From Nevskia sp. (GTDB lineage: Bacteria; Pseudomonadota; Gammaproteobacteria; Nevskiales; Nevskiaceae), in the NCBI GenBank assembly GCA_031291075.1, contig JARLJS010000131.1, positions 1 through 50,951 on the forward strand: a DNA stretch of 50,951 bases, written 5' to 3'. The position numbers and the translations under genes are program-made. Every line of letters starts with the position of its first letter. Within the stretch, counting starts at the first letter, position 1. The notes under the pieces are model-generated. The model saw nothing but the letters and a program-made list of their open reading frames with translations, was not told the origin of the DNA and did no database searches. Below are positions 12,529 through 33,940 of this stretch, in pieces.

Positions 12529-14217
12529 TCATGTGCAGGCGTGCTCGGCGGCCAGGAAGCCGAAGGTCATGGCCGGGCCCAGGGTGGCGCCGGCGCCGGG
12601 ATAGTAGCGGCCGGTGACCGAGGCCGAGCAGTTGCCCACCGCGTAGAGCCCGGTGATGGGCTGGCCTTGCGTGTTCAACACCTGGGCGCTGGCGTTGGTG
12701 AGCAGGCCGCCCTTGGTGCCGATGTCGCCGGGGAAGATCTCCACGGCGTAGTAGGGCGGTTCGGCCAGCGGCGCCAGGCATGGATTGGGCTTGATGCGCA
12801 CGTCGCCGTAGATCAGGTCGTACGGGTTCTCGCCGCGGTGGTGGTCAAGGTCCTTGCCTTCCAGCGCGAAGCGGTTGAAGCGCTCGACGGTGGCCTGCAG
12901 GTTGTGCGCGTCCACGCCCAGCTTCTGCGCCAACTGCTCCAGGCTGCGCGCGCTTTGCAGCAGTTCGCGCCGGACGTGGCGCGGCTGCAGCCAGTTCAGG
13001 TGCATGCCGCCGGGCAGCAGCGGGCCGAACGGATACTCGCGCTTGTAGCGCGCGTCGAAGATCAGGTAGGCGGGCAGGTTGCCGGGGCGGTACATGGCCT
13101 GCACGGCGGTGGTGTAGGCCACCGATTCGTTGAAGAAGCGCTGTCCGCCGCGGTTGACCACGATGGTGCCGGGCATGGAGCGCTCGGTGAACAGCATGCG
13201 TGCGCGGTCCTCGCCGGGGATGGCGATGGTCGGCCCCCACCAGGCCTCGTCGAGCAGCGCGGTGGCGGCACCGATGGCGCGGGCGGCGACCAGCATGTCG
13301 CCGGTGTTGTGCGGGTTGGCCGCGGACCAGCGCGCGTCGGTGGGCGCCGGCAGGTAGGCCTGGCGCAACGCCTGGTTGTGCTCGAAGCCACCGCAGGCCA
13401 GGATCACGCCGCGCCGGGCCCGCACCGCCAGCAGGCGGCCTTCGCGCTGCACGCGCGCGCCGAGCACCTCGCCCGAGGCGCTGGTGACCAGCTCCCGCGC
13501 CGGTGTCGACAGCCACAGCGGTACGTTCTTCTCCATCAGCGAGTGGCGCAGCCGGCCGATCAGCGCGTTGCCCATGGTCAGCCGCCGCGAGCGGCGTGAG
13601 CGGAAGCGCCAGGGCAGGTCCAGGAAATACTGCGCCGCCAGCTTCACCATCAGCTTGAACCAGCCGGGACCTTTCGACAGCAGGATGGCGCCCTCGGTGC
13701 TGCTGTAGCCCATCAGGCCCAGCACGCGGGTCTGCCGGTGCGGCTCCTGCAGCCGCAGGAATTCCTGGCCCAGGGACTGGGCCGGATAGGGCAGCGGATC
13801 CACTGAGCGGCCGCCGGGGCGGGAGCCCGCCAGGTCCTGGTAGTAGTCGGCGTAATACGGCATGGCCTGGAACTGCGCATGGGTGTTGGCGGTGAGCCAC
13901 TGCAGCATGCGGGCGGCGTGGGTGACGTAGGCCGCGACGTTGTCCTGTGGCACGTCGTCGCCGGTCAGCGACAGCACGTAGCGCAGCGCGTCCTCCTGCG
14001 AGTCCTCGATGTCGACGCCCGGCATCAAGTGGTTGTGCGGCACCCACACCACGCCGCCGGCAGTGGCGGAGGTGCCGCCGTAGTGGTCGCTTTTCTCGAC
14101 CAGCAGCACGTTGGCGCACGCGTGCGCGGCGCGCAGCGCCGCGGTCATGGCGCCGGCGCCGCTGCCGACCACCAGCACGTCCACGGTTTCGTCCCAGTTT
14201 TGCTCGGCTGTGTTCAT
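12529..14217 (-). CDS. 3-ketosteroid dehydrogenase-like flavoprotein (KstD family)
   Basis: A 562-residue FAD enzyme of the fumarate reductase/KstD superfamily. The N-terminus binds FAD (VDVLVVGSGAGAMTAALRA, then VEKSDHYGGTSATAGG). KstD catalysis uses a Tyr-Gly pair near the C-terminus, and the motif RYYPGAGATLGPAMTFGFLAA carries it here (about Tyr539 and Gly543). A tyrosine-rich segment (PYYADYYQDL) corresponds to the region of the conserved N-terminal active-site Tyr, and FFNESVAYTTA to the middle one. The known reaction is removal of hydrogens from C1-C2 (or C4-C5) of a 3-keto steroid ring A. Length is normal for the family. It is the strongest ring-A steroid signal in the window. Position specificity cannot be read from sequence. 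Confidence 0.85.
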   Translation of the reverse strand: MNTAEQNWDETVDVLVVGSGAGAMTAALRAAHACANVLLVEKSDHYGGTSATAGGVVWVPHNHLMPGVDIEDSQEDALRYVLSLTGDDVPQDNVAAYVTHAARMLQWLTANTHAQFQAMPYYADYYQDLAGSRPGGRSVDPLPYPAQSLGQEFLRLQEPHRQTRVLGLMGYSSTEGAILLSKGPGWFKLMVKLAAQYFLDLPWRFRSRRSRRLTMGNALIGRLRHSLMEKNVPLWLSTPARELVTSASGEVLGARVQREGRLLAVRARRGVILACGGFEHNQALRQAYLPAPTDARWSAANPHNTGDMLVAARAIGAATALLDEAWWGPTIAIPGEDRARMLFTERSMPGTIVVNRGGQRFFNESVAYTTAVQAMYRPGNLPAYLIFDARYKREYPFGPLLPGGMHLNWLQPRHVRRELLQSARSLEQLAQKLGVDAHNLQATVERFNRFALEGKDLDHHRGENPYDLIYGDVRIKPNPCLAPLAEPPYYAVEIFPGDIGTKGGLLTNASAQVLNTQGQPITGLYAVGNCSASVTGRYYPGAGATLGPAMTFGFLAAEHACT

Positions 14218-14248
14218 TGTCCGGGGGCCAATACATCAAGCGCGGTGG

Positions 14249-14343
14249 CAGTCCGCAAATGAACGCAAATGAACGCAAACAAAGGCGGCTCAGGTTCCCG
14301 GCATGTTTTGTATTTGCGTGTATTTGCGTTCATTTGCGGACTG
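14249..14343. repeat. Dispersed inverted repeat, copy A (CGCAAATGAACGCAAAT type)
   Basis: The left arm (14249-14280) is CAGTCCGCAAATGAACGCAA and onward, built from CGCAAAT units. The right arm (14311-14343) is its near-perfect complement, ending CATTTGCGGACTG. The middle 30 bases are unrelated. Copy B at 23357-23437 shares a 33-base right arm that is identical. It lies between the KstD-like gene and the upstream PQQ dehydrogenase gene and could attenuate read-through or be a small non-autonomous mobile element. No target duplication could be confirmed by eye. Confidence 0.85.
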
Positions 14344-14372
14344 ATTATCGGTTTCGTCCAGTTGATCCAGGC

Positions 14373-16313
14373 CTATGGAAGGGTGAAGGCCACGATGGTG
14401 TCGCCCGGCTCGGTGCCCAGCGGCGCGTGCCCGCCCGCCGCGATCACCACGAACTGCTTGCCGCCCGGGTGGACACGATAGCTGATCGGGGTGGCGTTGC
14501 CGGCATAGGGTAGCTCGTAGCGCCATAGCTCCTGTCCGGAGGTGGCGTCGAAGGCGCGCAGATACTTGTCCATGGCGGCGGCGATGAACACCAGCCCGCC
14601 GCCGGTCTGCAGCGAGCCGCCCGAGTTGGGCGTGCCCCAGTCCAGGTAGCCGCCGATCAGCGGCGCCAGCCCGTGCAGGGTGCCGAGCGGCTTTTCCCAC
14701 AGCTTGTCGCCGCTGTCGAGGTCGATCGCTTCCAGCCGGCCCCAGGGCGGGGCCACGCAGGGGGTCTGCCATGGCGACAGGAAGGGGCCGCGCACCACCA
14801 CGTAGGGCGTGTCCTCCTGCGGGCCGTAGCCGACCAGGTCGCTGCCGCCAATGCCGCCGTGGTACTCGGCGCGCGGGATGAGCTTGATGGTGAACGGCGC
14901 CGTCTGCAGGTTCACCACCATGCGGTGGTGCTGCGGGTCGACCGAGGCCGAGCCCCAGTTCACGCCGCCGCCCAGGCCGGGAAACTCCAGTGTGCCCTTG
15001 AGCGAAGGTGGCGTGTAGATACCCTTGTATTCCAGCGCGTCGAACTGCTCCTGGCACTTGCGCCGGTCCAGGGCGGTGAAGCCCCACAGCTCGTCGCGGC
15101 TGATGGCGAGCGGGGCCAGCGGCGCCGGCCGGGTGGCGAAGGGCTGGGTGGGGGAAGCGGTCTCGCCCGGCACGTCCGAGGCCGGCACCGGCCGTTCCTC
15201 CACCGGGAACAGCGGCGTGCCGCGCAGGCGGTCGAGCAGGAACACCTGCCCGGTCTTGGTCGCCTCGATCAGGGCCGGGATGTCCTTGCCGCCGGCGTGA
15301 TGGGTGTACAGCACCGGCTGCGCCGCCACGTCGTAGTCCCACAGGTCGTGGTGCACGGTCTGAAAGTGCCAGCGCACCGCGCCGGTGGCGGCGTCCAGCG
15401 CCACCACCGAGGCGCCGTAATAGTCCATCTGGCCGCGCTCCTTGCCGCCGTAGTGGTCGGGGGAGGGGCTGCCGGTGGGCACGAACACCAGTCCGTCGGC
15501 GGGGTCGGCGGTCATCGGCGCCCACACGTTGGGGGTGCCGCGCGTCAGCGTCGCGCCGTGCTTGACCTCCTCGGCGGTCACCGCGTGCATGCCGGGCGGC
15601 ACCGGGTCCCACACCCAGCGCAGCTCGCCGCTGCGGGCGTCGAAGGCACGTACCGCGCCGCCGGGCGCGTGCAGCCGCTGGCCGTCCTTGACGAAGGCGC
15701 CGGTGGCGACCAGGTCCCCGATCACCACCGGTGCCGAGGTCGGGTAGTACTCGGCCGGGCGCACCTCGCCCAGGCCCTGCAGCAGGTCGACCCGGCCGTC
15801 GCGGCCGAAATCCTTGCAGGCACGCCCGTCGGCCGCGTCCACCGCCCACAACCCGGCGTCCACCGTGTTGGCGAAGATACGTTCGCGGCAGGGCGTGCCG
15901 GCGGCGGCGTGCTCGTCGCGCCAGTACGCCACGCCGCGGCACACCGGGGTGTAGACGCCGTCGAGCTTCGCATGCGGGTCGAAGCTCCACTTCCGGCGGC
16001 CGCTCTCGGCGTGGAGCGCGATGACGCGGTTGTAGGGTGTGCAGAAGTACAGCGTGCCCTCCACCATCAGCGGCGTGACCTGCAGCGCGGTGCCGCCGTG
16101 ATGGTCGTCGCCCTTGGAGAAGTCGCCGCTGCGGTAGGTCCAGGCCGGTTTGAGCTGCGCCACGTTGTCGCCGCGGATGTCGGCCAGCGGCGAATAGCGC
16201 TGGCCGTCGGTGCCGCCGGTGGTGCTCCATGACGCGTCGTCGGCGCGCGGCAGGCCGCAGGCGCAGGCGAGCAGCAGCCCGGCGGCGAGCTTGACGGTGT
16301 TCGGATGGCTCAT
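14373..16313 (-). CDS. Periplasmic PQQ-dependent dehydrogenase (glucose dehydrogenase-like)
   Basis: The 646-residue product has a signal peptide (VKLAAGLLLACACGLPRADD) followed by an eight-bladed quinoprotein propeller. Diagnostic stretches are QTVHHDLWDYDVAAQPVL, DYYGASVVALDAATGAVRWHF and LDWGTPNSGGSL, all typical of the membrane glucose dehydrogenase (Gcd) type. It lacks the five-helix N-terminal membrane domain of Gcd and has no haem c motif, so electrons must pass to another carrier. The ATG at 16313 starts directly at the signal peptide; upstream in-frame codons lie in the promoter. Next to KstD and under the shared operator, it may oxidise an alcohol on the pathway substrate in the periplasm; sugar oxidation is the alternative. 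Confidence 0.85.
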   Translation of the reverse strand: MSHPNTVKLAAGLLLACACGLPRADDASWSTTGGTDGQRYSPLADIRGDNVAQLKPAWTYRSGDFSKGDDHHGGTALQVTPLMVEGTLYFCTPYNRVIALHAESGRRKWSFDPHAKLDGVYTPVCRGVAYWRDEHAAAGTPCRERIFANTVDAGLWAVDAADGRACKDFGRDGRVDLLQGLGEVRPAEYYPTSAPVVIGDLVATGAFVKDGQRLHAPGGAVRAFDARSGELRWVWDPVPPGMHAVTAEEVKHGATLTRGTPNVWAPMTADPADGLVFVPTGSPSPDHYGGKERGQMDYYGASVVALDAATGAVRWHFQTVHHDLWDYDVAAQPVLYTHHAGGKDIPALIEATKTGQVFLLDRLRGTPLFPVEERPVPASDVPGETASPTQPFATRPAPLAPLAISRDELWGFTALDRRKCQEQFDALEYKGIYTPPSLKGTLEFPGLGGGVNWGSASVDPQHHRMVVNLQTAPFTIKLIPRAEYHGGIGGSDLVGYGPQEDTPYVVVRGPFLSPWQTPCVAPPWGRLEAIDLDSGDKLWEKPLGTLHGLAPLIGGYLDWGTPNSGGSLQTGGGLVFIAAAMDKYLRAFDATSGQELWRYELPYAGNATPISYRVHPGGKQFVVIAAGGHAPLGTEPGDTIVAFTLP

Positions 16314-16410: not shown

Positions 16411-16429
16411 CCGCCGCAACGGAGGGGGC

Positions 16430-17536
16430 ATGACGACGCAGAAACTGCGCGTGATCCATTGCGGCACCGGCGTCGCCGGCCGCCAGGCGCTGCGCGCGAT
16501 CCTCGACCATCCCGGGCTTGAGCTGGCCGGCCTGCTGGTTCATGGGCGGGACGGCGACGGCAGGAGCGCGGCGGCGCTGGCCGGGCTGCCCGACGGATCG
16601 GGCGGGGCGCCCGGCAGGGTGGCGGCGACTGCCGATTTCGAGCGCATCGTGGCCACCCCGGCCGACGTGGTTTGCTACATGCTGCTGCTGCCCGACGCCG
16701 ACCGCATCGAGGCGCTGCTGGCGTCCGGCAAGAGCGTGGTGACCACCGCCGGCCTGATGTTCCCCCGCTGGCGCGACGCGGCGACGGCGCAGCGGCTGGA
16801 TCGCGCCTGCCGCCGCGGCCGTTCCTCGTTCTATGTCACCGGCATCAATCCCGGCTGGGTCGACGAGGTGCTACCGTTGACCATGTCGGGCCTGTGCCGC
16901 CGCATCGAGCGCATCCACATCCGCGAATACGCCGACTGCGCGCAGTACCCGGCGCCGCACATCCTGAGTGTGATGGGGTTCGGCCGGCCGGAAAGCGAGC
17001 TGCGCGAAGGCCGCCTGCCGGACCTGGCGGTGATGCGGGACTTCTTCACCCAGTCGCTGGCGGCGCTGGCGCACGGCCTGGGGCTGGAGCTGGATCGCAT
17101 CGAGGAGTCGCGCGAAGTGGTGGCGGCGCCCCGCGACTACGACATCAAGGCCGGGCACATCGCCAAGGGCACCATCGGCGGCCAGCGCTGGCGCTGGCAG
17201 GCTTACGCCGGCGGCGCGCCGCGCATCGTGCAGGAGACCTACTGGATCACCGCCTTCGACCTGGGCGAGGGCTGGCCGCGCGCCGGCGAGTACGACAACG
17301 ACACGCAGTGGCGCGTGACGCTGGAGGGCACGCCCTCGCTGCGCTGCACCTTCGAGCCCCGCTACAGCTTTCTCGACGACACCCTGGCGCGGCTGGCGCC
17401 GGACTACAACCCGTCCGGCCTAGCCACCGCCATGGCGGCGGTGAACAGCCTGATCCCCGTCCACCGCGCGCGGCCCGGCCTGCTGTGCAGCGCCGACCTG
17501 CCGCTGCCGCGCTGCCGCCAGCCCGCCCATGCCTGA
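16430..17536 (+). CDS. Amine dehydrogenase-like/DapB-fold NAD(P)-dependent oxidoreductase A
   Basis: A 368-residue cytoplasmic protein. The Rossmann start LRVIHCGTGVAGRQALRAI and the later 'TGINPGWVDEVLPLTMS' match proteins annotated as dihydrodipicolinate-reductase-like or NAD(P)H-dependent amine dehydrogenases, a family that includes 2,4-diaminopentanoate dehydrogenase. It is far longer than true DapB and has no lysine-pathway neighbours. I start at 16430, where GGAGGGGG precedes the ATG. A paralogue follows at 18020, with an EXPERA gene between them. Actinobacterial relatives are often found with lipid or steroid genes, so a ketone/alcohol or ketone/amine conversion on a hydrophobic substrate is possible, but the reaction is not known. 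Confidence 0.75.
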   Translation: MTTQKLRVIHCGTGVAGRQALRAILDHPGLELAGLLVHGRDGDGRSAAALAGLPDGSGGAPGRVAATADFERIVATPADVVCYMLLLPDADRIEALLASGKSVVTTAGLMFPRWRDAATAQRLDRACRRGRSSFYVTGINPGWVDEVLPLTMSGLCRRIERIHIREYADCAQYPAPHILSVMGFGRPESELREGRLPDLAVMRDFFTQSLAALAHGLGLELDRIEESREVVAAPRDYDIKAGHIAKGTIGGQRWRWQAYAGGAPRIVQETYWITAFDLGEGWPRAGEYDNDTQWRVTLEGTPSLRCTFEPRYSFLDDTLARLAPDYNPSGLATAMAAVNSLIPVHRARPGLLCSADLPLPRCRQPAHA

Positions 17537-18023
17537 GCGCAGCGCCTATCGCGGCTGGGACCGCTTCTTCGTCGCCGCCTTCGGCCTGTTTTCGCTGGTG
17601 GCGTTCGTCCACGAGCCGCTGTTCTATCTCTACTGCGGCTGGGATGGGCTGCGCCACGACAGCTGCAGCAACGCCACCGTGGCCGCGATCTGGAAGGGCT
17701 ATGCCAGGCTGGATCCCGTCTACTTCGACATGCCGCTGTGGATGGCGCTGATGATCGGCTTCGACAGTGTCCTGCTCAGCCCGTTCTACCTGTACAGCAT
17801 CTACGTCTTCGCCACCGGCCGCGCCGACACGCCGCTGTACCGCGCCATCGGCTACAGCGTCAGCGGCGCCCTGGTCTACGCCATGGTGTTGTACCTGAGC
17901 TGGGAGAGCCTGACGGCGCGGCAGTACGGCGCCGCGCTCGGCGCGGTGGTGGCCTACAACATCCCCTGGGGGCTGGTGCCCCTGCTGCTGGTGGTGCGCC
18001 TGTACCGCGGGAGCCGGACATGA
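17529..18023 (+). CDS. EXPERA/EBP-like membrane protein A (sterol isomerase-like)
   Basis: A 164-residue protein with four predicted membrane helices. The layout and several short motifs resemble emopamil-binding protein, the eukaryotic sterol delta8-delta7 isomerase: VHEPLFYLYCGW near the first helix (compare the H-x3-E of EBP), IWKGYARLDPVYF after it, SPFYLYSIYVF, VLYLSWESLT and NIPWGLVPLLLV. It shares the signature EP-x-F-x-L-x-CGW-x-GL with the second copy at 20191. EXPERA proteins bind sterol-like ligands in the membrane, some as isomerases. It starts eight bases before the end of the upstream gene and overlaps the next by ATGA, so the three are translationally coupled. Confidence 0.65.
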   Translation: MPERSAYRGWDRFFVAAFGLFSLVAFVHEPLFYLYCGWDGLRHDSCSNATVAAIWKGYARLDPVYFDMPLWMALMIGFDSVLLSPFYLYSIYVFATGRADTPLYRAIGYSVSGALVYAMVLYLSWESLTARQYGAALGAVVAYNIPWGLVPLLLVVRLYRGSRT

Positions 18024-19093
18024 AGTCGAGGTACCGGGTGATCCAGTACGCCACCGGCGGCGTCGGCAAGCACGCCATCGCCGGCATCGCGGAGCATCCG
18101 CGGCTGCAACTCGCCGGCCTGCTGGTTCACAGCAAGGACAAGGTGGGCCGGGACGCGGGGGCGCTCGCCGGCATCGCGCCGCTCGGCGTGCAGGCCACCG
18201 ACCGGGTCGAGGACGTGCTCGCGCTGGGGGCGGACTGCGTGTCCTACATGGCCCTGTGGCCGGACGTGGAGCTGATCTGCCGCTTCCTCGAAGCGGGCCT
18301 CAACGTGGTCACCACCTCCGGCCTGCTGTACCCGAAATTCTTCGGCGCCGAGCTGGTGGAGCGGCTGGAGGCGGCCTGCCGCAGGGGCGGCACGTCGGTG
18401 CACGGCACCGGCATCAACCCCGGCTTCAGCGGCGAGGTGCTGCCGCTCACGATGTCGATGCTCAGTCGCCGCATCGAGCAGATCACGGTGCGTGAGTTCG
18501 CCGACTTCCGCACCTACAACTCGCCGGAGCTCAACCACGCGATGCTCGGCTTCGGCCGCGATCCGGCCGATGTGCGCGCGCACAAGCACCCCAACTTCGA
18601 CCTGATGATGCGTTTCTTCCACCAGTCCATCCACTTGGTGGCGGACGGCCTGGGCGTGGCGCTGGAGCGCATCGAGCAGACCGAAGAGTACGGTCTCACT
18701 CCCGTCGGCGCGACGATGGAGTCCGGCCCGGTGCCGCCGGGGACCATCGGCGGCATCAAGACCCGCTTCGCCGGCGTCGTCGCGGGCCGGCCCATGATCG
18801 TGATCGAGCTCACCTGGGTGGCGGCCTACGATCTCGGCGCGGGCTGGCCCGCCGCCGCCGGGGAGCACACGCACTGGAGCGTCACCATCGAAGGCCAGCC
18901 CTCGTTGCGTTGCAGCTTCGAGCAGGCGCTGAGCTTCGAGCAGGGCCACGCAACCGCGGGCCACACCGCGCCGGCGATGATCTGCACCGCGATGCACGCC
19001 GTCAACGCGATCCCCTACGTCTGCGAGGCGGAGCCGGGAATCCGCACCTTCCTCGACCTGCCGCTGATCGCGGCCAAGGGCGCGTTCCGCTAA
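18020..19093 (+). CDS. Amine dehydrogenase-like/DapB-fold NAD(P)-dependent oxidoreductase B
   Basis: A 357-residue paralogue of the protein at 16430. Shared features include the nucleotide-binding start (VIQYATGGVGKHAIAGI), LAGLLVHSKDKVGRDAG, VVTTSGLLYP, GTGINPGFSGEVLPLTMSMLSRRIE and the C-terminal region around LGAGWP. The glycine-rich loop differs from copy A (GGVG against GVAG), so they may differ in cofactor or substrate. It overlaps the EXPERA gene by four bases (ATGA) and precedes a Rieske oxygenase by 27 bases. Two diverged copies kept in one operon suggest two successive or stereochemically different steps. The reaction is unknown. Confidence 0.75.
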   Translation: MKSRYRVIQYATGGVGKHAIAGIAEHPRLQLAGLLVHSKDKVGRDAGALAGIAPLGVQATDRVEDVLALGADCVSYMALWPDVELICRFLEAGLNVVTTSGLLYPKFFGAELVERLEAACRRGGTSVHGTGINPGFSGEVLPLTMSMLSRRIEQITVREFADFRTYNSPELNHAMLGFGRDPADVRAHKHPNFDLMMRFFHQSIHLVADGLGVALERIEQTEEYGLTPVGATMESGPVPPGTIGGIKTRFAGVVAGRPMIVIELTWVAAYDLGAGWPAAAGEHTHWSVTIEGQPSLRCSFEQALSFEQGHATAGHTAPAMICTAMHAVNAIPYVCEAEPGIRTFLDLPLIAAKGAFR

Positions 19094-19120: not shown

Positions 19121-20071
19121 ATGTCGCTGCTTCCCGCCGCCGCCCGCAGCTTCCCGCCCGATCCCCGCCCGGCCTTTCCCAACGGCTGGCTCGGCATCGG
19201 CTTTACCGACGACGTGGCCCTGGGCCAGGTGGTGTCCCGCCACATCCTGGGCCGCGATCTGGTGCTGTTCCGCACCGGCGCGGGCGTCCTCACGGTGGCC
19301 GACGCCTATTGCCCGCACCTGGGCGCCCACCTGGGCGGCGGCGCGGTGGTGGAGGACACGCTGCGCTGTCCTTTTCATCACTGGCAGTTCGGCAGCGACG
19401 GCCGCTGCACCCGTACCCCGGGCGACCGCAAGCTGCCGGAGCGGGCGCGGCTGAGAACCTGGCTGGCGTGCGAGGTCAACGGCTTCATCTTCGTCTGGCA
19501 CCACGCGCAGGACGCCGCGCCGTCCTGGGACATCCCGCCGCACCCCATCGTCGAGGATCGCGACTACTACCTGGTCGAGAAGCGCGAGCACCTGTTTCGT
19601 GCGCATCCGCAGGACATCTCCGAGAACGGCGCCGACTTCGCCCATTTCGAAGCGATCCACGGCTGGTCCGGTGTGCGGCTCAAGTTCGTGCCGGACGGGA
19701 CGAGCTACCGCGTCGGCTACGACACCAGCGAGGTCGACACCGGCTACGGCGACACCGGCAGCGTCGGCGTCGACTCGTTGGCGGTCGGTCCCGGCTACAC
19801 CTACACCCACTACACCGGCGCCGCCGACTGGCTGATGCTGACCTGCTACACCCCGGTCGACCCGGGCACGGTCTACATGCACCAGATCTACTACGCCCAC
19901 CGCGCGGTGCCGCGGCCGCAGGCCAAGGCGCTGGTGGAGGCGGTCGACTGCGAGTGGCGCAAGGACATCGCGATCTGGCAGGCCAAGTGCTATCGAGAGC
20001 AGCCCGCGCTCAACGATGGCGACGGCCCCATCGCCCAGTTCCGCCGCTGGTACGGGCAGTTCTACGGTTGA
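19121..20071 (+). CDS. Rieske non-haem iron oxygenase A (KshA/DAF-36-like)
   Basis: A 316-residue oxygenase subunit. The Rieske [2Fe-2S] site is Cys64-Pro-His66 ... Cys83-x2-His86 with the standard 16-residue gap. The mononuclear iron site follows the rule N-x2-D-x2-H-x4-H (Asn169, Asp172, His175, His180). Size, domain order and the motif CPHLGAHLGGG resemble single-component-alpha Rieske enzymes that act on sterols, such as 3-ketosteroid 9-hydroxylase KshA, DAF-36 7-desaturase and SdmA. It needs a reductase and perhaps a ferredoxin; a ferredoxin is encoded at 22221 but no reductase is in the window. It ends the first unit before operator site 2. Confidence 0.88.
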   Translation: MSLLPAAARSFPPDPRPAFPNGWLGIGFTDDVALGQVVSRHILGRDLVLFRTGAGVLTVADAYCPHLGAHLGGGAVVEDTLRCPFHHWQFGSDGRCTRTPGDRKLPERARLRTWLACEVNGFIFVWHHAQDAAPSWDIPPHPIVEDRDYYLVEKREHLFRAHPQDISENGADFAHFEAIHGWSGVRLKFVPDGTSYRVGYDTSEVDTGYGDTGSVGVDSLAVGPGYTYTHYTGAADWLMLTCYTPVDPGTVYMHQIYYAHRAVPRPQAKALVEAVDCEWRKDIAIWQAKCYREQPALNDGDGPIAQFRRWYGQFYG

Positions 20072-22220: not shown

Positions 22221-22553
22221 ATGGTTGCGATCACCTATATCGAGCACGACGGCACCCGTCACCGGGTGGACGTCGATGCGGACATGACGCTGATGGAAGG
22301 CGCCACCCTCAACATGGTGCCGGGCGTGATCGGCATGTGCGGCGGCATCTGCTCCTGCGCCACCTGCCACTGCTATATCCCGGCGGCCTGGCAGGACAAG
22401 CTGCTGCCGCCCTCGCCCGGCGAGCTGAACATGCTGGACAGCGCCAGCCACCGGCGGCCCAACAGCCGCCTCGGCTGCCAGATCGTGGTGACGGCGGCGC
22501 TGGAGGGGATGGAGGTGGAGCTGCCGGTGGAGCAGGGCGACGACGCGGGCTGA
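22221..22553 (+). CDS. Adrenodoxin-type [2Fe-2S] ferredoxin
   Basis: A 110-residue electron carrier. The cluster ligands follow the vertebrate/bacterial adrenodoxin spacing: C-x5-C-x2-C in MCGGICSCATCHCYI, with the fourth cysteine in RLGCQI. The motif GELNMLD and the ending 'LEGMEVELP' are also family marks. Such ferredoxins pass electrons from a flavin reductase to class I P450s, and sometimes to Rieske oxygenases. A P450 gene lies 9 kb downstream under what appears to be the same operator, and no other ferredoxin is present. The reductase must be elsewhere in the genome. Confidence 0.93.
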   Translation: MVAITYIEHDGTRHRVDVDADMTLMEGATLNMVPGVIGMCGGICSCATCHCYIPAAWQDKLLPPSPGELNMLDSASHRRPNSRLGCQIVVTAALEGMEVELPVEQGDDAG

Positions 22554-25146: not shown

Positions 25147-26604
25147 ATGAACCGCATCCTGAAATACGAAGACGTGACGCAGTTCGACCAGGAAACGGAC
25201 GTGGTGGTGGCCGGCTACGGCGGCGCCGGCGGCTGTGCCGCGCTGGAGGCGCGCCGCGCCGGTTCCGACGTGCTGCTGCTGGAGCGCGCCAGCGGCGGCG
25301 GCGGCTCCACCATGATGTCGGCCTGCGAGATGTACCTGGGGGGCAGCGGCGGCACCCGGCTGCAGCGCGACCTGGGCTTTGCCGACTCCACCGGGAACTT
25401 CCGCAATTATCTCGAAGCCTGCTTCGCCCCCAACGTCGACGCGGAGCGCATGCGCCTGTTCACCGAGGGCGCGGCCGCCCACTTCGACTGGGTCGAGGCG
25501 CTGGGGGTGAAGTACAAGCGCGGCTGTTTCGAGGGCCGCGACGTGGTGGCGCTGACCGGCGATTCGCTGCAGTACACCGGCAACGAGCGGGCCTGGCCGT
25601 TCACGGATGTCGCCACGCCGGTGCCGCGCGGCCACCTGCCGGCGGACGCCGGCCACGAAGGCGGGGTGCGCTTCTTCACCGCCCTCAAGGCGCGGGTGGA
25701 GGAAGCGGGGGTGCGGGTGCAGTGCGACAGCCGCGTCACGCGGCTGATCCAGGATCGCAGCGGGCGTGTGTGCGGAGTGGTGGCGCGCAGCGCCGGGCAG
25801 GACCGCAAGGTGCGTGCGCGCCAGGGCGTGATCCTGTGCTGCGGCGGCTTCATCATGAACGAGGCGATGACGCGCAGGCACATCCCGGAGCTGGACGCCA
25901 TTGCCACCCGCCACGGCAATCCCGGCGACATGGGTGACGGCATCCTGATGGGCGTGGCTGCCGGCGGCCAGGCCATCAACATGGGCGAGGCCTTCGTCGG
26001 CATCGCCCACTACCCGCCGCCGCAGCTCACCTTCGGTATCTTCGTCAACCAGCAGGCGCAGCGCTTCGTCAACGAGGACGTGTACCTGGCGCGGCTGGGC
26101 CACTACGCCGCCCAGCAGCCGGGCGACCGCATCTGCATGTTCATCGACAACCGCCACTTCGACCGCCCGGCCTACCTCAAGGTGGACATGGTGGCGGTGG
26201 ACGACAGCGTGGCGGTGCTGGAGCGCGAGGCCGGTTATCCGCCCGGAGCGCTGCAGCAGACGGTGGATTTCTACAACCGCCACGCCGCGCGCGGCGAGGA
26301 CCCGCTGTTCCACAAGGCGCGCGCATGGCTGTGCCCCCTGGATACGCCGCCCTATGCGCTGGTGAGCTATCGCCTGTCCGAGATCAGGCCGCCGGTGTTC
26401 ACCCTCGGCGGGCTGGATGTGCTGCCCACCGGCGAGGTGGTCGACCCGGAGCGCCAGCCCATCCCCGGGCTCTACGCCGCCGGGCGCACCGTGGCCGGCA
26501 TCCCCCGCAACTCGAAGGGCTACGCCAGTGGCATGTCGGTGGCGGATGTGACCTTCTTCGGCCGCCTGGCCGGGATCCAGGCGGCCAGGCAGCCGCGCTG
26601 CTAG
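25147..26604 (+). CDS. FAD-dependent oxidoreductase, fumarate reductase/KstD superfamily
   Basis: A 485-residue flavoprotein. FAD binding is shown by DVVVAGYGGAGGCAALEARRAG and LLERASGGGGSTMMSA, and by the C-terminal GLYAAGRTVAGIPRNSKGYASG. It lacks the YPG-x-G motif of true KstD and instead has a Ser/Lys/Tyr-containing loop (RNSKGYASG). It may therefore oxidise or reduce a different C-C bond, for example an enoyl-type double bond in a ring. It starts 37 bases after the dehydrogenase and closes the catabolic run. It is only distantly related to the flavoprotein at 12529. Confidence 0.85.
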   Translation: MNRILKYEDVTQFDQETDVVVAGYGGAGGCAALEARRAGSDVLLLERASGGGGSTMMSACEMYLGGSGGTRLQRDLGFADSTGNFRNYLEACFAPNVDAERMRLFTEGAAAHFDWVEALGVKYKRGCFEGRDVVALTGDSLQYTGNERAWPFTDVATPVPRGHLPADAGHEGGVRFFTALKARVEEAGVRVQCDSRVTRLIQDRSGRVCGVVARSAGQDRKVRARQGVILCCGGFIMNEAMTRRHIPELDAIATRHGNPGDMGDGILMGVAAGGQAINMGEAFVGIAHYPPPQLTFGIFVNQQAQRFVNEDVYLARLGHYAAQQPGDRICMFIDNRHFDRPAYLKVDMVAVDDSVAVLEREAGYPPGALQQTVDFYNRHAARGEDPLFHKARAWLCPLDTPPYALVSYRLSEIRPPVFTLGGLDVLPTGEVVDPERQPIPGLYAAGRTVAGIPRNSKGYASGMSVADVTFFGRLAGIQAARQPRC

Positions 26605-28880: not shown

Positions 28881-30152
28881 ATGAACACGTCCGTCTCCTC
28901 GCCCTGGGGCTTCCGCCGCATGACCGGCCTGGTGCTTACCGCCGGCGGGGCGCGCGGCGCCTACCAGGCCGGGGTGCTGAAGCGGCTGGGCGAGGTGCCG
29001 GCCCTGCGCAACCGGCCTTCGCCGTTCCCCATCATCGCCGGCGCCTCGGCCGGCGCCATCAACGGCGCCGCCATCGCCGCCTTCAGCAGCGACTTCGGCG
29101 AGGGCACGCGCAAGCTGGCGCAGCTCTGGGGGCAGCTCGAAGCCCGACAGGTCTACCGCACCGACTTCCGCGCCCTGGCCCGCAACGGCCTGCGCCTGGC
29201 GCTGGACCTGCTGCTCGGCCCGCTGCTGGGCGCCGGGCGCGTGCAGTCGTTCCTGGACACGGCGCCGCTGCGCGCCTTCCTCACCGCGCACCTGCCGATG
29301 GACGGCATCGCCGCCTCGATCCGCAGCGCCCACCTCTACGCGCTGGCGGTCACCGCCACCGGCTATCACTCCGGCAAGGCCTTCACCTTCATCCAGGGCA
29401 AGCCGGGCCATCCGTTGTGGACCAAGAGCCGGCGCGTGGCGCTGCCGGTGGCGCTGTCGATCGACCACATCTACGCCTCGGCCGCGATCCCGCTGGTGTT
29501 TCCGCCCGCGCCGATCGTGGTGGCCGGGGCCACCGCCTACTTCGGCGACGGCGCCCTGCGCCTGGTCACGCCGCTCAGCCCGGCCATCCGCCTGGGGGCC
29601 GAGCGGGTATTCGCCATCGGCGTGCGCAACCAGGAGTCCGCCGCAGACCTGTTGCGCACCGAGCTGGCCGCCGACGCCGACATCGACGCCGCCGCCGCCC
29701 GCCTGCGCAGCCCGCCGCTGGCGCAGGTCTGCGGTGTGTTCCTCAACGCGATCTTCCTCGACCACCTGGACGCCGACGTCGACCACCTGCGGCGCATGAA
29801 CGACCTGGTGGCGGCGCAGCACGGCGACGTGCAGGTGCAGGGGCGCACCGTCAACGAGCCGATGCGGGTGGTGGAGCCGCTGGTGGTGTCGCCGTCGGAG
29901 GACCTCGCGCTCATCGCCCGTTCGCTGGAACATCGCATCCCGCTGGCGATCCGCTGCCTGATGGATGCGCTGGGCACGCCCGACGCGCAGAGCGCCGATC
30001 TCACCAGCTACCTGCTGTTCGACACCAAGTTTACGCAGGCGCTGATCGACATCGGCTATCGCGACGCCGACCGCCGCATCGACGAGATCGAGCATTTCCT
30101 GGTCGGCGCCGGCAAGGGCGCCGGCGCCGCCGCGCGCTCCCGGAAGAAGTAG
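28881..30152 (+). CDS. Patatin-like phospholipase
   Basis: A 423-residue acyl hydrolase. The oxyanion loop GGARGAYQAGVL, the nucleophile Ser57 in GASAGAI and the second catalytic residue Asp223 in FGDGALR form the patatin Ser-Asp dyad. There is no clear signal peptide, so it probably acts in the cytoplasm or at the inner membrane on phospholipids or lipid esters. The ATG at 28920 is an alternative start. It is separate from the upstream gene (177 bases) and is followed by a hairpin and by operator site 3. A role in releasing acyl groups from steryl esters is possible but unsupported. Confidence 0.88.
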   Translation: MNTSVSSPWGFRRMTGLVLTAGGARGAYQAGVLKRLGEVPALRNRPSPFPIIAGASAGAINGAAIAAFSSDFGEGTRKLAQLWGQLEARQVYRTDFRALARNGLRLALDLLLGPLLGAGRVQSFLDTAPLRAFLTAHLPMDGIAASIRSAHLYALAVTATGYHSGKAFTFIQGKPGHPLWTKSRRVALPVALSIDHIYASAAIPLVFPPAPIVVAGATAYFGDGALRLVTPLSPAIRLGAERVFAIGVRNQESAADLLRTELAADADIDAAAARLRSPPLAQVCGVFLNAIFLDHLDADVDHLRRMNDLVAAQHGDVQVQGRTVNEPMRVVEPLVVSPSEDLALIARSLEHRIPLAIRCLMDALGTPDAQSADLTSYLLFDTKFTQALIDIGYRDADRRIDEIEHFLVGAGKGAGAAARSRKK

Positions 30153-30244: not shown

Positions 30245-30287
30245 TCCGGCCATAATCATGTAAATCCGCGGCAGAGGAGGAAACCAT

Positions 30288-31436
30288 ATGGCCGATGATC
30301 TCAAGAAGAGCAGCGCGGCGACGGTGCAACGCAACCTGCTGACCATCCCCAGGCTGGCCGACGGCTCGCCGCGCTACGCGCGCGGCTGGCACATGGTGGG
30401 CTGGAGCGACGAGTTCGAGGTCGCCAAGCCGGTGGCGCGCGACTACTTCGGCCAGCGCCTGGCGATCTATCGCGGCGAGGACGGCAAGGTGCGCTGCATG
30501 GATGCCTTCTGCCCGCACCTCGGCGCGGACCTCTCCGCCGGCACGGTGAAGGGCAACCTGCTGCAGTGCGCCTTCCACAACTGGACCTACGACGGCAGCG
30601 GCCAGTGCGTGAAGATCCCCTACTGCGACAAGATCCCGCCACGGGCGAAGACGCGCGCCTACCCGGTGATGGAGATCAACGATACCGTGCTGGTCTGGCA
30701 CGACCATGAGCAGGGCGCACCCGAGATGGACATCGCGCCGCTGCAGGAATACAAGGGGGCCGGCTGGACCAAGGGCTGGCAGCGCTTCAAGATCACCATC
30801 AAGACGCACCCGCGCGAGGTGATGGAGAACACCGTCGACAAGGGCCACCTGCTGCCGATCCACGGCTTCGACGTCGACACCTGGCTGCCGGTGTGGAACG
30901 GCAACATGTGCGGCGAGCTGATGTGGGGCAAGCACACCCGCCTCGCCGCCGACGTCAAGGACGACAAGCTCTACGTGCGCTCCATCAGCCACGGCCCGGC
31001 CTACCAGTACACCTGGCAGATCCAGGACAGCGGCCAGTTCGACAGCCTCATCCTCACCGCTTGGTGCCCGGTGGACGAGAACACGCTGGACTACTGGTTC
31101 GGCGTCATCTGCAAGGCCGATCCCGCGCAGTTCACGCCGGAGATGCTGGAGGCGGCGGCGGTGGGCTATTGCAAGGCCTCGTTCGACGCGTTCATGGAAG
31201 ATGTCTACATCTGGGAGCGCAAGCTGTACCGGCCGGAGCCGGTGCTGTGCGCCGGCGACGGGCCGATCGCCAAGCTGCGCCGCTGGTATACGCAGTTCTA
31301 CACCGACCGCGCCCAGGTCGACAATGCGCAGTTCCACAACAACAACCACAACTGGACCATCCAGGATCTGCGTGACCGCATGCCGCAGGTGATGGCCACG
31401 CAGCAGATCCCGGGCGCCGCCACGGTCGCGGCCTAG
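30288..31436 (+). CDS. Rieske non-haem iron oxygenase B
   Basis: A 382-residue oxygenase subunit. Rieske ligands are Cys75, His77, Cys94 and His97 with the normal 16-residue gap; iron ligands fit N-x2-D-x2-H-x4-H (Asn181, Asp184, His187, His192). It is longer than Rieske A and shares its FCPHLGADL motif and the C-terminal pattern of a charged Tyr/Trp-rich end (GPIAKLRRWYTQFYTD), also seen in Rieske A (GPIAQFRRWYGQFYG). The two are therefore sister enzymes of one subfamily, close in style to KshA/DAF-36-type sterol oxygenases. It opens the third unit, before the P450. The site of oxidation is unknown. Confidence 0.9.
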   Translation: MADDLKKSSAATVQRNLLTIPRLADGSPRYARGWHMVGWSDEFEVAKPVARDYFGQRLAIYRGEDGKVRCMDAFCPHLGADLSAGTVKGNLLQCAFHNWTYDGSGQCVKIPYCDKIPPRAKTRAYPVMEINDTVLVWHDHEQGAPEMDIAPLQEYKGAGWTKGWQRFKITIKTHPREVMENTVDKGHLLPIHGFDVDTWLPVWNGNMCGELMWGKHTRLAADVKDDKLYVRSISHGPAYQYTWQIQDSGQFDSLILTAWCPVDENTLDYWFGVICKADPAQFTPEMLEAAAVGYCKASFDAFMEDVYIWERKLYRPEPVLCAGDGPIAKLRRWYTQFYTDRAQVDNAQFHNNNHNWTIQDLRDRMPQVMATQQIPGAATVAA

Positions 31437-31547: not shown

Positions 31548-32708
31548 ATGGCGTATTTCGATCCGTTCGATCACGCGGTCCACGACAATCCATATCCGGT
31601 TTACCAGGACCTGCGCGACCACGACCCGCTCTACCACAACGACAGGCACGGCTTCTGGATCGTTTCGCGCTACGACGACTGCGTGAAGGTGCTGCGCGAC
31701 TTCGCCACCTTCTGCAACAAGCATGGGCAGACCCTCGAGCCGACCGGCAAGACGGTGCCGCCGATCCTGCTGCTGATGGATCCGCCGCACCACACGCGGC
31801 TGCGCAAGGTGGTGGCGCGGGTGCTCACGCCGGAGCGCATCGGGCACCTGGAGGGCGACATCCGGCGGCTGGCGCAGGAGCTGCTGGCGCCGTTCCACGG
31901 CCAGCATCGCATCGATATCGTGGCCGACTTCTCCGCCTACCTGCCGATGGCGATCATCGCCCGCATGCTCAAGATCCCGCGCGAGCACGAGGACATGATG
32001 CGCGCCTGGACCGACGCCTGCGTCCATCGCGACGACGGCGTCTTCGCCATGCCCGAAGCCGGGCTGAAGGCGACCATGGACATGTGGGTGTACTTCGAGG
32101 ACCTGGTCAAGGAGCGCCGCAAGCATCCGTACGGCGACGACCTGGTGAGCCTGATCCTGCAGTCGGAGGATGCCAAGGAGATGTCGCACGAGGAAGTGAT
32201 CGGTTTCCTCTACATCCTCGCCATCGCCGGCAACGAGACCACCACCAAGCTGATTGGCAACATGAGCTGCCAGCTGTCGCGCCATCCGGAGCAGCTGCGG
32301 CTGCTGCGCGAGCAGCAGGAGCTGCTGCCCTCGGCGGTGGAGGAGACCATGCGCTTCGACGGCCCGACCCAGCTGCAGGCGCGCACCGCCACCCGCGACG
32401 TGGAGATGTACGGCAAGACCATCCGCGAGGGCGACAAGGTCGGCATCCTGTTCATCTCGGCCAACCGCGACGAGCGGCACTACCAGAACGCCGACGTCTA
32501 CGACGTCCGCCGCAACCCGCGCGACCACATCGGCTTCGGCGCCGGCGTGCACGCCTGCCTCGGCGCCGCGCTGGCGCGGCTGGAAGTGCGCATCGCGTTC
32601 GAGGAGATCTTCAAGCTGGCGCCGGAATTCAGCGTCGAGGAATCCGGCCTCAAGCGCATGCACTCGCCCAATGTCCGCGGCTACACCAGCGTGCCGATGA
32701 GCTTCTAG
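31548..32708 (+). CDS. Cytochrome P450
   Basis: A 386-residue soluble bacterial P450. The haem ligand is Cys337 in FGAGVHACLGAALAR; the oxygen-activating I-helix motif is AIAGNETTT; the ERR-triad part is EETMRFDGP and the proximal region includes DPPHHTRLRKVVARVLTP. I start at 31548, where GGAGGGG lies eight bases upstream; the 36 residues before it in frame are intergenic. It probably receives electrons from the adrenodoxin-type ferredoxin at 22221. Bacterial P450s in steroid loci often hydroxylate the side-chain terminus, but the family could not be assigned from sequence alone. Confidence 0.93.
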   Translation: MAYFDPFDHAVHDNPYPVYQDLRDHDPLYHNDRHGFWIVSRYDDCVKVLRDFATFCNKHGQTLEPTGKTVPPILLLMDPPHHTRLRKVVARVLTPERIGHLEGDIRRLAQELLAPFHGQHRIDIVADFSAYLPMAIIARMLKIPREHEDMMRAWTDACVHRDDGVFAMPEAGLKATMDMWVYFEDLVKERRKHPYGDDLVSLILQSEDAKEMSHEEVIGFLYILAIAGNETTTKLIGNMSCQLSRHPEQLRLLREQQELLPSAVEETMRFDGPTQLQARTATRDVEMYGKTIREGDKVGILFISANRDERHYQNADVYDVRRNPRDHIGFGAGVHACLGAALARLEVRIAFEEIFKLAPEFSVEESGLKRMHSPNVRGYTSVPMSF

Positions 32709-32735
32709 AAGCCGCAGCGGAGGAGGAGGACCGCA

Positions 32736-33107
32736 ATGAAGAAGAAATACGACCGCGACAAGGGGCGCGAGCTGTTCGACGAGGTCTACTGCGGCGACCT
32801 CGGCGAGCTGCCGCCGGCCGGTTCCAGCCGCTTCATCGACTACATGCTGGAGACCCTGTTCGGCACCCTGTGGGCCGACGAGACGCTCAGCATCCGCGAC
32901 CGCCGCCTGCTGCTGATCGGCGCCATCGCCGCCCAGGGCGACGAAACCACGCTGGCGATCCAGCTCCGCTCGGCCTTGAAACGCGGCGAGCTGACCCCGG
33001 CGCAGATGGAGGCGCTGGCGATGTTCCTGACCCAGTACGTCGGCTACCCCAAGGGTTCCCGGCTGTTCCGGATCGTCAATGAAACCGTGGCCGGGCAGGG
33101 CAAGTGA
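32736..33107 (+). CDS. Carboxymuconolactone decarboxylase family protein
   Basis: A 123-residue all-helical protein with the CMD pattern: TLFGTLWADETLSIRDRRLLLIGAIAAQGDETTLAIQLRSALKRGELTPAQMEALAMFLTQYVGYP. It lacks the CxxC pair of AhpD-like peroxidatic members, so it is of the CMD type. Family members carry out decarboxylation, lactone reactions or have unknown roles. It lies 27 bases after the P450 (with AGGAGGAGG before the ATG) and overlaps the next gene by GTGA, so it is likely needed with the cycloisomerase-like protein. Confidence 0.82.
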   Translation: MKKKYDRDKGRELFDEVYCGDLGELPPAGSSRFIDYMLETLFGTLWADETLSIRDRRLLLIGAIAAQGDETTLAIQLRSALKRGELTPAQMEALAMFLTQYVGYPKGSRLFRIVNETVAGQGK

Positions 33108-33940
33108 CGCTGCCGGGACACTGGTTCTCGCGCAACCCGGACAAGGCCTGGGCGGAGAAGTTCTTTCTCACCTTCATCCCGGTGTTCTTCGCCTACAACG
33201 CCGTGATCCAGAAGATGGGCTGGCTCGACGTCGGCGATTTCTGGCACGTCGCCCAGAACCTGCTGATGTGGGTGCCGTACTGCCTGCTGCTGCCGTTGCT
33301 GCTGCGCCGCGGCAGCGGCGTGCCCTGGCGGCAGAGCTACTGGTTCAAGTTCAACCTCTACATGTTCGTGTACGTGTTCTTCGCCACGTACTTCCACACC
33401 GAGTATTTCTTCAAGACGCTGGGCATCCGCTACCGCTTTCCCCACGTCACCCTCTACCTCGACTCCGCCCTGCTCGGCCCGGACGAAGCCACCGCGATGC
33501 GGAACTTCGAGAAGGTGCCACTGGGGATGTACTTCAACGCCATCGCCTTCTTCATCGTCTACCACACCGCCTCGGTGATCTGCATGCGGCGGGTGAAGAC
33601 CCTGACGCCGGCCGCCCCGGCGGCTGTGCGGCGGCTGCTGTGGGCGGCGACGGTGGCGGTCACCGCCTACTTCTTCGCCTGGGCGGAAACCTTCATGTAC
33701 GTCAATTCCGCCGCCAGCGCCAACGTCTGGTACATCGACCGGGCGCGGATGCTGAGCCTGGGCTCGGCCTGTTATGCGCTGTACTTCATCGTCAGCTTCC
33801 CCAACGTGTTCCGCCTCGACGAGGAGGCGGAGGGCGAGCGCTGGCCGCTGTCGCGCTGTGTCATCGAGGCTTCGTTCGTCAGCATGGTCGTGTTGTTCCT
33901 GCTGGACCTGTTCACCTGGATCGTCGGTCCGATCGCCTGA
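33104..33940 (+). CDS. Cycloeucalenol cycloisomerase-like membrane protein
   Basis: A 278-residue protein with about seven membrane helices and clear, nearly full-length similarity to plant cycloeucalenol cycloisomerase (CPI). Corresponding segments include SRNPDKAWAEKFFL at the N-terminus, YWFKFNLYMFVY, YFHTEYFFKTLGIRYRFP, FIVYHTASVICMRRVK, YFFAWAETFMYVN, RARMLSLGSACYALYFIVSF and FRLDEE. In plants this enzyme opens the 9,19-cyclopropane ring of cyclopropyl sterols to a delta8 sterol. The start codon is GTG, overlapping the CMD stop (GTGA). Together with two EBP-like proteins it suggests sterol skeleton isomerisation. Enzyme activity of bacterial homologues is an inference here. Confidence 0.82.
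   Translation: MTLPGHWFSRNPDKAWAEKFFLTFIPVFFAYNAVIQKMGWLDVGDFWHVAQNLLMWVPYCLLLPLLLRRGSGVPWRQSYWFKFNLYMFVYVFFATYFHTEYFFKTLGIRYRFPHVTLYLDSALLGPDEATAMRNFEKVPLGMYFNAIAFFIVYHTASVICMRRVKTLTPAAPAAVRRLLWAATVAVTAYFFAWAETFMYVNSAASANVWYIDRARMLSLGSACYALYFIVSFPNVFRLDEEAEGERWPLSRCVIEASFVSMVVLFLLDLFTWIVGPIA

Follow-up and report, generated by a model that had tools for sequence, protein, structure and literature searches.

We analysed a contig from a Nevskia sp. genome of the family Nevskiaceae (assembly GCA_031291075.1, contig JARLJS010000131.1, positions 1 to 50,951), referred to here at its full length of 50,951 nucleotides as the window, in which a homologue of the plant cyclopropylsterol cycloisomerase (CPI) lies among genes for a KstD-like dehydrogenase, KshA-type Rieske oxygenases and EXPERA-type membrane proteins. 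The host genome measures 5.65 Mb in 302 contigs (97% complete, 3% contamination), of which the window is contig 7, and, judged by CPI, its closest named relative is a Nevskia metagenome-assembled genome (MAG; L045, 88%). An earlier reading made from the letters alone, here the sequence-only reading, had proposed a locus for sterol or triterpenoid catabolism at 12529-33940. All the genes that it named there exist as open frames, as seen from the frames and from domain searches: the CPI homologue, two EXPERA-type proteins (EXP1 and EXP2), the KstD-like protein, two KshA-type Rieske oxygenases (RO1 and RO2), a P450, a ferredoxin, an aldehyde dehydrogenase (ALDH), short-chain dehydrogenases (SDR1 and SDR2) and a beta-hydroxyacid dehydrogenase (HIBDH) (Table 1). 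Beyond these we found a TetR regulator, a PQQ dehydrogenase, two DAP_DH_C proteins (DapB1 and DapB2), a second FAD enzyme (FAD2), a carboxymuconolactone-decarboxylase-like protein (CMD) and, on the left side, DUF1329, ALDH and TonB genes at 2693-8274. In related genomes, relatives of the left-side DUF1329, ALDH and TonB-receptor genes lie close to the CPI locus, and the locus probably extends leftward to the DUF1329 and TonB genes (2.7-8.3 kb). Since named isolates have comparable gene sets near their CPI, the grouping of the genes exceeds what chance would give. Genes were called with a simple composition script, by which some are missed or have a misplaced start.

Table 1. Genes of the CPI locus and its surroundings in the window. 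G-numbers denote genomes of the 146-genome set (G000 is the window's own genome) and L-numbers denote loci; percentages are identities, and scores are in bits.
Feature	Coordinates	Strand	Evidence
DUF1329 envelope protein (putative uptake role)	2693..4057	+	PF07044 370 bits; relatives 61-70% in CPI neighbourhoods of G055, G038, G024; 63% in G035, which lacks CPI
Second aldehyde dehydrogenase (ALDH2)	4196..5698	+	PF00171 323 bits; relatives 62-66% beside a DUF1329 gene in G055, G038, G035
TonB-dependent receptor, possible sterol uptake	6163..8274	+	PF00593/PF07715; 43% relatives (divergent) upstream of RO2 in G042, G023
TetR regulator	11828..12439	-	PF00440 47 bits; 45-53% relatives near CPI in L058, L061, L066, L072
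KstD-like 3-oxosteroid delta1-dehydrogenase	12529..14217	-	FAD_binding_2 277 bits; best PDB 7p18; 67-72% relatives beside other locus genes in G024, G055, G006
PQQ-dependent dehydrogenase	14373..16313	-	PF01011 752 bits; 62-80% relatives in G024, G055, G006, G007
DapB1, DAP_DH_C oxidoreductase	16430..17536	+	PF19328 45.8 bits; 70% in the G042 CPI run, 56% in L071
EXP1, EXPERA (TMEM97/EBP-like) membrane protein	17529..18023	+	PF05241 26.2 bits (cut-off 25.7)
DapB2, DAP_DH_C oxidoreductase	18020..19093	+	PF19328 54.4 bits; 73% in G042
RO1, KshA-type Rieske oxygenase	19121..20071	+	KshA_C 113.5 bits; best PDB KshA 4qdc, 131 bits
EXP2, second EXPERA-like protein	20191..20736	+	43% to EXP1; no Pfam match; 55-61% relatives in Solimonas and Hydrocarboniphaga loci
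ALDH, Rv0768 family	20733..22196	+	TIGR04284 686 bits, under cut-off 775
Fer2 ferredoxin (putative P450 partner)	22221..22553	+	PF00111 27 bits
SDR1	22584..23327	+	PF13561 201 bits; 50% in Nonomuraea CYP51 operon
SDR2	23467..24273	+	PF00106 160 bits
HIBDH-like beta-hydroxyacid dehydrogenase	24270..25109	+	PF03446 139 bits; HIBADH model 158 bits, under cut-off 292
FAD2, second FAD dehydrogenase (PRK07121 type)	25147..26604	+	NF005510 630 bits, over cut-off 481
Patatin-like lipase (uncertain member of the locus; possible release of sterol esters)	28881..30152	+	PF01734 73 bits; 81% on same short contig as CPI in G007
RO2, KshA-type Rieske oxygenase, constant partner of group-1 CPI in Nevskiaceae	30288..31436	+	KshA_C 173.3 bits
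Cytochrome P450, not CYP51	31548..32708	+	PF00067 81.5 bits; best PDB YjiB 257 bits, CYP125MRCA 245 bits; 40% to P450 of Nonomuraea CYP51 operon
CMD, carboxymuconolactone-decarboxylase-like, 4-base overlap with CPI	32736..33107	+	PF02627 33.5 bits; 69-76% relatives near CPI in 10/10 Nevskiaceae loci of the scan
CPI, cyclopropyl-sterol isomerase homologue	33104..33940	+	32% to a provisional Arabidopsis CPI1 sequence
LuxR-type regulator	33960..35117	+	GerE 20.5 bits, under cut-off 23.5; 70% relative after CPI in G007

The plant CPI is classified as EC 5.5.1.9. The window protein aligned with a provisional sequence of Arabidopsis CPI1 over 276 columns with 32% identity (E 5e-38), and of the 32 residues that are invariant over 71 bacterial CPI rows of the alignment 26 are also found in that plant sequence. 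No Pfam or NCBIfam model matched the window CPI at E ≤ 0.01. Its AlphaFold model (pLDDT 90.3, pTM 0.89) gave 72 matches in the PDB at E ≤ 10 and none at E ≤ 0.001, and a fold kinship with EXPERA proteins or with any solved fold was rejected, no EXPERA protein being present in the best 50 of the 72 matches. A search of a plasmid collection with CPI gave no match. Homology to the plant enzyme is strong, and from it we predict that the window CPI opens the 9,19-cyclopropane of a sterol. In a MAG of the same genus (G006:C144, L018-L020) CPI is in three pieces, with matches to RO2 (82%) and CMD (75%) alongside.

Of the two EXPERA proteins, EXP1 clears the Pfam EBP model (PF05241) narrowly, and EXP2 is linked to the family by its identity to EXP1 (Table 1). 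The best PDB match of the EXP1 model, which has pLDDT 76 and was built from 5 sequences, was the cholesterol-bound sigma-2 receptor (TMEM97) 7mfi, with TM scores of 0.63/0.64 and a Foldseek probability of 1.00, but with E 0.086 and 20% identity. In the plant series of CPI, CYP51, C14 reductase and 8,7 isomerase, the EXPERA proteins could stand in for EBP.

The KstD-like protein matched the 3-oxosteroid 1-dehydrogenase 7p18 over residues 10-560 with 568 bits; it scored 588 bits with PRK12844, under the cut-off of 789, and none of the 25 NCBIfam models listed reached its cut-off. RO1 and RO2 both carry a Rieske and a KshA_C domain, and KshA was the best PDB match of each. Two paralogues elsewhere in the genome, C234 and C124, outscore them on KshA_C (234 and 209 bits), RO2 being 35% identical to C234. 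Like RO1 and RO2, SdmA of the Methylococcus SdmA/SdmB system for C-4 demethylation is a Rieske oxygenase, and both window proteins matched the SdmA model NF052579 over the Rieske part only, with 67 (RO2) and 47 (RO1) bits against a cut-off of 600, so we rejected them as SdmA orthologues. A full-length SdmA-like gene (162 bits, under cut-off) lies elsewhere in the same genome, outside the window locus, near dnaA/dnaN/recF-looking genes (L209 8509-9591, G000:C272).

We then determined the distribution of these genes over a fixed set of 146 genomes, the window's own included, of which 58 belong to the Nevskiaceae; the searches for relatives of RO2, ALDH and CYP51 scored part of the first-look candidates in some genomes. 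CPI was detected in 18/146 genomes, 12 with a group-1 and 6 with a group-2 protein, these groups being the two clades described below. Orthologues of RO2 (73-84% besides the window) and of ALDH (75-87% besides the window) were present in exactly the 12 genomes of group 1; below them, the best of the matches listed had 40% and 54% identity, respectively. EXPERA proteins were found in these 12 genomes and in two others, G035 and G058. Co-occurrence, suggested as a check in the sequence-only reading, thus proved strong; hypergeometric values for EXPERA were 7e-16 over the whole set and 1e-11 within the 58 family genomes (13 carriers), both of which take no account of shared descent. Four genera are represented among the 12 genomes, and in three of these the pattern is patchy. 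Named isolates with the locus are Solimonas variicoloris, S. flava, S. soli, S. terrae and Hydrocarboniphaga daqingensis; there are also Solimonas species that lack it. With 671 kb between CPI and the ALDH/EXP2 module in G042, the association does not reflect linkage alone.

A physical tie to steroid degradation was observed in Solimonas terrae (G055), where one 80-kb stretch holds genes for FadD3, a FAD dehydrogenase, an HsaC-like protein, a CoA-transferase pair, an EchA20-like protein, an acyl-CoA dehydrogenase and a thiolase, followed by DUF1329, P450, LuxR, a second DUF1329, ALDH2, CMD, CPI, a FAD2-like protein (40%), RO2, EXP2, ALDH, a ferredoxin, SDR1, SDR2, HIBDH, the PQQ dehydrogenase, KstD and TetR; no RO1, DapB1/DapB2 or EXP1 was found in this stretch. 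The distance between CPI and an HsaC-family gene was ∼36-43 kb in G038, G051, G052 and G055, and for G018, a genome of group 2, it was ∼39 kb. The genome of the window has a comparable cluster (C185) away from the window, with FadD3 (716 bits) and thiolase (695 bits) over their cut-offs, an HsaC-like protein for which HsaC was the best model (286 bits, under the cut-off of 450), a CoA-transferase A with generic matches only and a CoA-transferase B without any model at E ≤ 1e-10; genes of this cluster are presumably ipdAB, ipdC and echA20. The sequence-only reading had proposed to look for kshB, hsa and side-chain genes elsewhere in the genome; HsaC-family and FadD3-type genes are present, and with later-stage genes they make up the set by which we recognised 9,10-seco degradation. 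The window supplies a KstD-like protein and two KshA_C oxygenases to such a pathway, and to our knowledge CPI, EXPERA proteins and the methyl-stripping set proposed below are absent from its known genes. Hydrocarboniphaga, which also carries the locus, is listed as a predicted steroid degrader in a section of Bergstrand 2016 (PMC4810484), in which the Proteobacteria tested did not use cholesterol.

When 84,980 species genomes were scanned with a pattern-based search, 76 CPI loci were obtained. The tree of 70 of these with the window and plant proteins (midpoint rooting, six loci left out) split into group 1, with the window, Solimonas, Hydrocarboniphaga, Halieaceae, Spongiibacteraceae, some sphingomonads and 'deltaproteobacteria', and group 2, with Zavarzinia, HdN1, Spongiibacter, Myxococcales, Chloroflexi and others; the plant protein fell in group 2. 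In the counts that follow, L120 (a 54-aa match) and L118 (partial) were kept in group 2, L088 and L104 represent one MAG, and identities are those of the best aligned piece, sometimes short, within the fetched flanks. CYP51 (≥40%) was found near CPI in 33/41 group-2 loci and in 6/35 group-1 loci, among them L060, where it lies ∼0.3 kb upstream of CPI. A gene that we call putative 8,14-Bsr (>40%) was near CPI in 25/41 and 1/35 loci, respectively. The CYP51 query, from HdN1, is secure, its best PDB matches being CYP51 chains (6mcw, 659 bits). The label 8,14-Bsr is taken from a study of which a passage reports that 8,14-Bsr co-localises with CYP51 in diverse bacteria and whose main text lacks the words cycloisomerase, cyclopropyl and cycloeucalenol (Lee, Giner and Welander 2026, PMC13277303). 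We matched the gene by position and by a weak SnoaL likeness, not against the sequence of that study; Pfam gave SnoaL matches under the threshold (20 and 24 bits against 27) or no match at all, and the PDB two chains only, named Scone-E/Scone-R, so the name rests on adjacency to CYP51. Among the 146 genomes CYP51 was detected in the 6 group-2 CPI genomes and in G111, and putative 8,14-Bsr in 5/6 of the former.

Since plant CPI is followed by CYP51 and then by the C14 reductase, as a passage in PMC12667688 sets out, CYP51 and putative 8,14-Bsr form the neighbourhood expected of an authentic cyclopropyl-sterol isomerase. In contrast to the plant series, the window locus is bacterial, no oxidosqualene cyclase and no CYP51 were found in its genome, and its CPI sits among KstD and KshA-type oxygenases, to which relatives add FadD3/HsaC-type genes. 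Several other observations were made on these loci. On two Chloroflexi MAG contigs (L101, L105) CPI has neither CYP51 nor putative 8,14-Bsr in its fetched flanks. A DapB2-like gene (34%) lies within ∼3 kb of CPI in the group-2 loci L080, L085, L086 and L097 of myxobacterial/deltaproteobacterial MAGs, and from these neighbourhoods the DAP_DH_C family may be a wider partner of sterol loci. A group-1 CPI on a MAG labelled Klebsiella pneumoniae (L070, CAMAXE010000001.1) clusters with that of an uncultured gammaproteobacterial MAG (L069), and the label is doubtful.

A related gene set was found in an actinobacterial CYP51 operon. In Nonomuraea gerenzanensis (L248) genes for TetR (PF00440), a P450 (40% to that of the window), an SDR, CYP51 (44% to HdN1), a ferredoxin and putative 8,14-Bsr (58%) stand 2.3 kb ahead of those for ALDH (55%), SDR1 (50%), HIBDH (36%) and CMD (37%). 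The window shares with it TetR, P450, ALDH, SDR1, HIBDH and CMD, in the same ALDH-SDR1-HIBDH order, with P450 and CMD starting 6.4 and 7.6 kb after that run. Unlike the Nonomuraea operon, it has CPI, EXPERA proteins, RO1/RO2, KstD and a Fer2 ferredoxin that gave no match in L248, and it lacks CYP51 and 8,14-Bsr. In Spongiibacter pelagi (L077) P450, HIBDH, ALDH, ferredoxin, SDR1, CMD, CYP51, putative 8,14-Bsr and CPI all lie in ∼11 kb. A matching gene order (Rv076x) presumably surrounds Rv0764c in mycobacteria. In the scan, where many contigs are short, at least two of six genes (P450, ALDH, HIBDH, SDR1, ferredoxin, CMD) were found within 10 kb of CPI in 4/10 Nevskiaceae loci; of 16 control stretches of related genomes (0.29 Mb) one had one of the six, a P450, and that stretch adjoins the CPI locus of G038. 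Neighbours of ALDH on Rhodococcus, Streptomyces and Sphingobium plasmids look like other clusters and were rejected as evidence for a CYP51 operon, which leaves Nonomuraea as the real comparison. The Nonomuraea sequence is labelled 'plasmid I' (NZ_LT559118.1) and, at 11.85 Mb, is probably a chromosome.

Genes for sterol synthesis were searched for in the window and in its genome. The sequence-only reading had reported no squalene epoxidase or cyclase, and none was seen in those window genes that were searched. A single SQHop_cyclase_C match was obtained in the genome; it carries the DDTA motif that we take to mark hopene cyclases, so we read it as hopene type. PF08491, the squalene epoxidase model, gave one match in the genome, with 33 bits over model positions 119-206 (about a third) and a cut-off of 20.1. 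Matches to this model occur in at least 119/146 genomes, in at least 109/146 over the cut-off, and in the E. coli control; most have 20-40 bits and cover part of the model, and a small number of weak matches span the greater part of it. Because similar matches are so widespread, the protein of the window's genome is probably a UbiH-type relative, and PF08491 was rejected as a yes/no test for squalene epoxidase; among the matches listed G111 alone stands out. That genome, of the same class, carries on one contig (G111:C186, L213) a squalene epoxidase (94 bits), CYP51 (39% to HdN1) and an SdmA-like protein (396 bits, under cut-off); this is likely a sterol biosynthesis cluster and gives an idea of how a relative that makes sterols might look. 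The possibility that the window genes are the tailoring set of an oxidosqualene cyclase, which would have overturned the catabolic proposal, was rejected for this genome, whose one cyclase is hopene type and which has no convincing squalene epoxidase.

On these grounds we regard it as moderately probable, from sequence comparison, that the locus is a catabolic kit for imported 4-methylated 9beta,19-cyclopropyl sterols (cycloartenol, cycloeucalenol and their kin), by which the cyclopropane would be opened and the ring methyls stripped before 9,10-seco degradation. That an external sterol is broken down rather than synthesised, as the sequence-only reading held, is supported by the co-occurrence, by the linkage to a FadD3/HsaC-type cluster in G055 and by the lack of synthesis genes in our searches. 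The sterol would be taken up through the TonB receptor and the DUF1329 protein. By protonating and opening the 9,19-cyclopropane, CPI would give back the C-19 methyl and leave a ring-B alkene, which the TMEM97/EBP-like EXPERA proteins may shift. In 9,19-cyclopropyl sterols C-9 is quaternary, and 9alpha-hydroxylation would therefore be blocked unless the cyclopropane is opened. The P450 with its ferredoxin, ALDH, SDR1 and the beta-hydroxyacid dehydrogenase could, to judge from their enzyme classes, convert a C-4 methyl to a carboxylate; the last belongs to the class of 3-hydroxyisobutyrate and 6-phosphogluconate dehydrogenases and could carry out the oxidative decarboxylation of the 3-hydroxy-4-carboxylate. 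KstD (delta1) and the KshA-type oxygenases (9alpha-hydroxylation by RO2 or RO1) would then open ring B, and the FadD3/HsaC-type cluster of the genome would degrade the remainder.

Several observations weigh against this proposal, and its chief gap concerns the 14-methyl group. This group is usually present in naturally occurring 9,19-cyclopropyl sterols, and CYP51 (E ≤ 1e-70; 9/22 first-look candidates scored in the window's genome) was not found in that genome or in the other 11 group-1 genomes. The best match to putative 8,14-Bsr in the window's genome has 29% identity, hence no close relative, and the plant-like series of CPI, CYP51 and C14 reductase was not detected there. Either the substrate lacks the 14-methyl, or the methyl survives into later steps, or RO2 removes it. 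Presence of EXP2 in G035, which has no CPI, indicates that EXPERA proteins are not tied to CPI. HsaC-family genes (at least 200 bits) occur in 42/58 family genomes, including 11/12 CPI carriers; as these genes are widespread in the family, in genomes with CPI and in genomes that lack it, HsaC was rejected as a marker of CPI carriers. Several locus proteins score under curated model cut-offs. Outside the Nevskiaceae the six-gene set is sparse, with at least two of the six in 1/25 other group-1 and 4/41 group-2 loci, and the ALDH family is broad, occurring in other actinobacterial clusters with no annotated P450 nearby.

Some of these points would suit the catabolism of common sterols that have no cyclopropane, with CPI and EXPERA now acting as isomerases of other ring-B double bonds (delta7, delta8 or delta9(11)). 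The missing CYP51 and 8,14-Bsr and the EXP2 of G035 agree with it, as does the position of group-1 CPI in a clade separate from group 2 and the plant protein. The shared invariant residues of bacterial and plant CPI and the six group-1 loci with CYP51 in their flanks argue against such a change of function, and we consider it rather unlikely. If instead the substrate were a plant cycloartane or lanostane triterpenoid or saponin and not a membrane sterol, the same enzyme classes would serve; this we hold to be distinctly unlikely, as the 7p18-like KstD and the tie to the FadD3/HsaC-type cluster point to a sterol nucleus and a Pfam scan of 20 locus proteins gave no glycosidase family. A role in making or remodelling a sterol for the cell's own membrane draws on the biosynthetic function of CPI, CYP51 and EBP in plants, and on the presence in group 2 of CYP51 and of a putative 8,14-Bsr, whose bacterial relatives include sterol producers according to a part of PMC13277303. 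It is very improbable given the cyclase and epoxidase results above, the lack of any match to the genome's own squalene-hopene cyclase (E ≤ 1e-5) in the fetched flanks of the 76 CPI loci, and the KstD and KshA types with their physical tie to degradation genes in G055. That CPI and EXPERA belong to non-sterol lipid metabolism in a coincidental neighbourhood, an outcome that the sequence-only reading had named as fatal to its proposal, deserves next to no credence: no solved fold matches the CPI model and Pfam gave nothing for one of the EXPERA-like proteins, but homology to plant CPI, CYP51 near clade-2 CPI and the exact co-occurrence of group-1 CPI, RO2 and ALDH in 12/146 genomes of four genera oppose it.

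The window also contains genes to the right of the locus. A 2150-aa protein at 41458-47910 has a pro-kumamolisin activation domain, PKD, Big_1 and invasin-D3-like repeats. At 36577-39837 lies a CHAT-domain protein that also has TPR repeats; after it come small genes resembling, by eye, a sigma and an anti-sigma factor.

Returning to the proposed catabolism of cyclopropyl sterols, a bolder extension of it would be that the P450-ALDH-SDR-HIBDH-CMD set, with the ferredoxin, is a third sterol C-4 demethylation machinery, catabolic and distinct from the eukaryotic SMO/NSDHL and the bacterial SdmAB, and that in Nevskiaceae CPI and RO2 have replaced CYP51 and 8,14-Bsr, RO2 perhaps being a Rieske-type sterol 14-demethylase. 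We put this forward as a tentative idea that may well be wrong. Mycobacterial CYP51 demethylates lanosterol and obtusifoliol, and its role is described as unclear in a passage of PMC6469627. If true, the idea would give the orphan actinobacterial CYP51 operon a purpose, the processing of imported lanosterol-, cycloartenol- or obtusifoliol-type sterols.

The sequence-only reading knew of no described bacterial pathway with this gene set, and in our searches of the open-access literature no CPI-containing bacterial catabolic locus was found by title or abstract. What is new in the proposal is the reach of steroid catabolism, which would take in cyclopropyl and 4-methyl sterols at its upstream end. 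Plants make their sterols from precursors of the cycloartenol type. In 1991 Lee, Young and Wang reported that microbes transform cycloartenol and lanosterol to C19 steroids (lanosterol-fed Mycobacterium, as cited in a passage of PMC13277303), and no gene set for such a transformation was found in our searches. The locus provides a testable gene set in named isolates of Solimonas and Hydrocarboniphaga, it shows that CPI homologues occur in many bacteria and form two clades, and it offers a possible function for the unexplained neighbourhood of actinobacterial CYP51.

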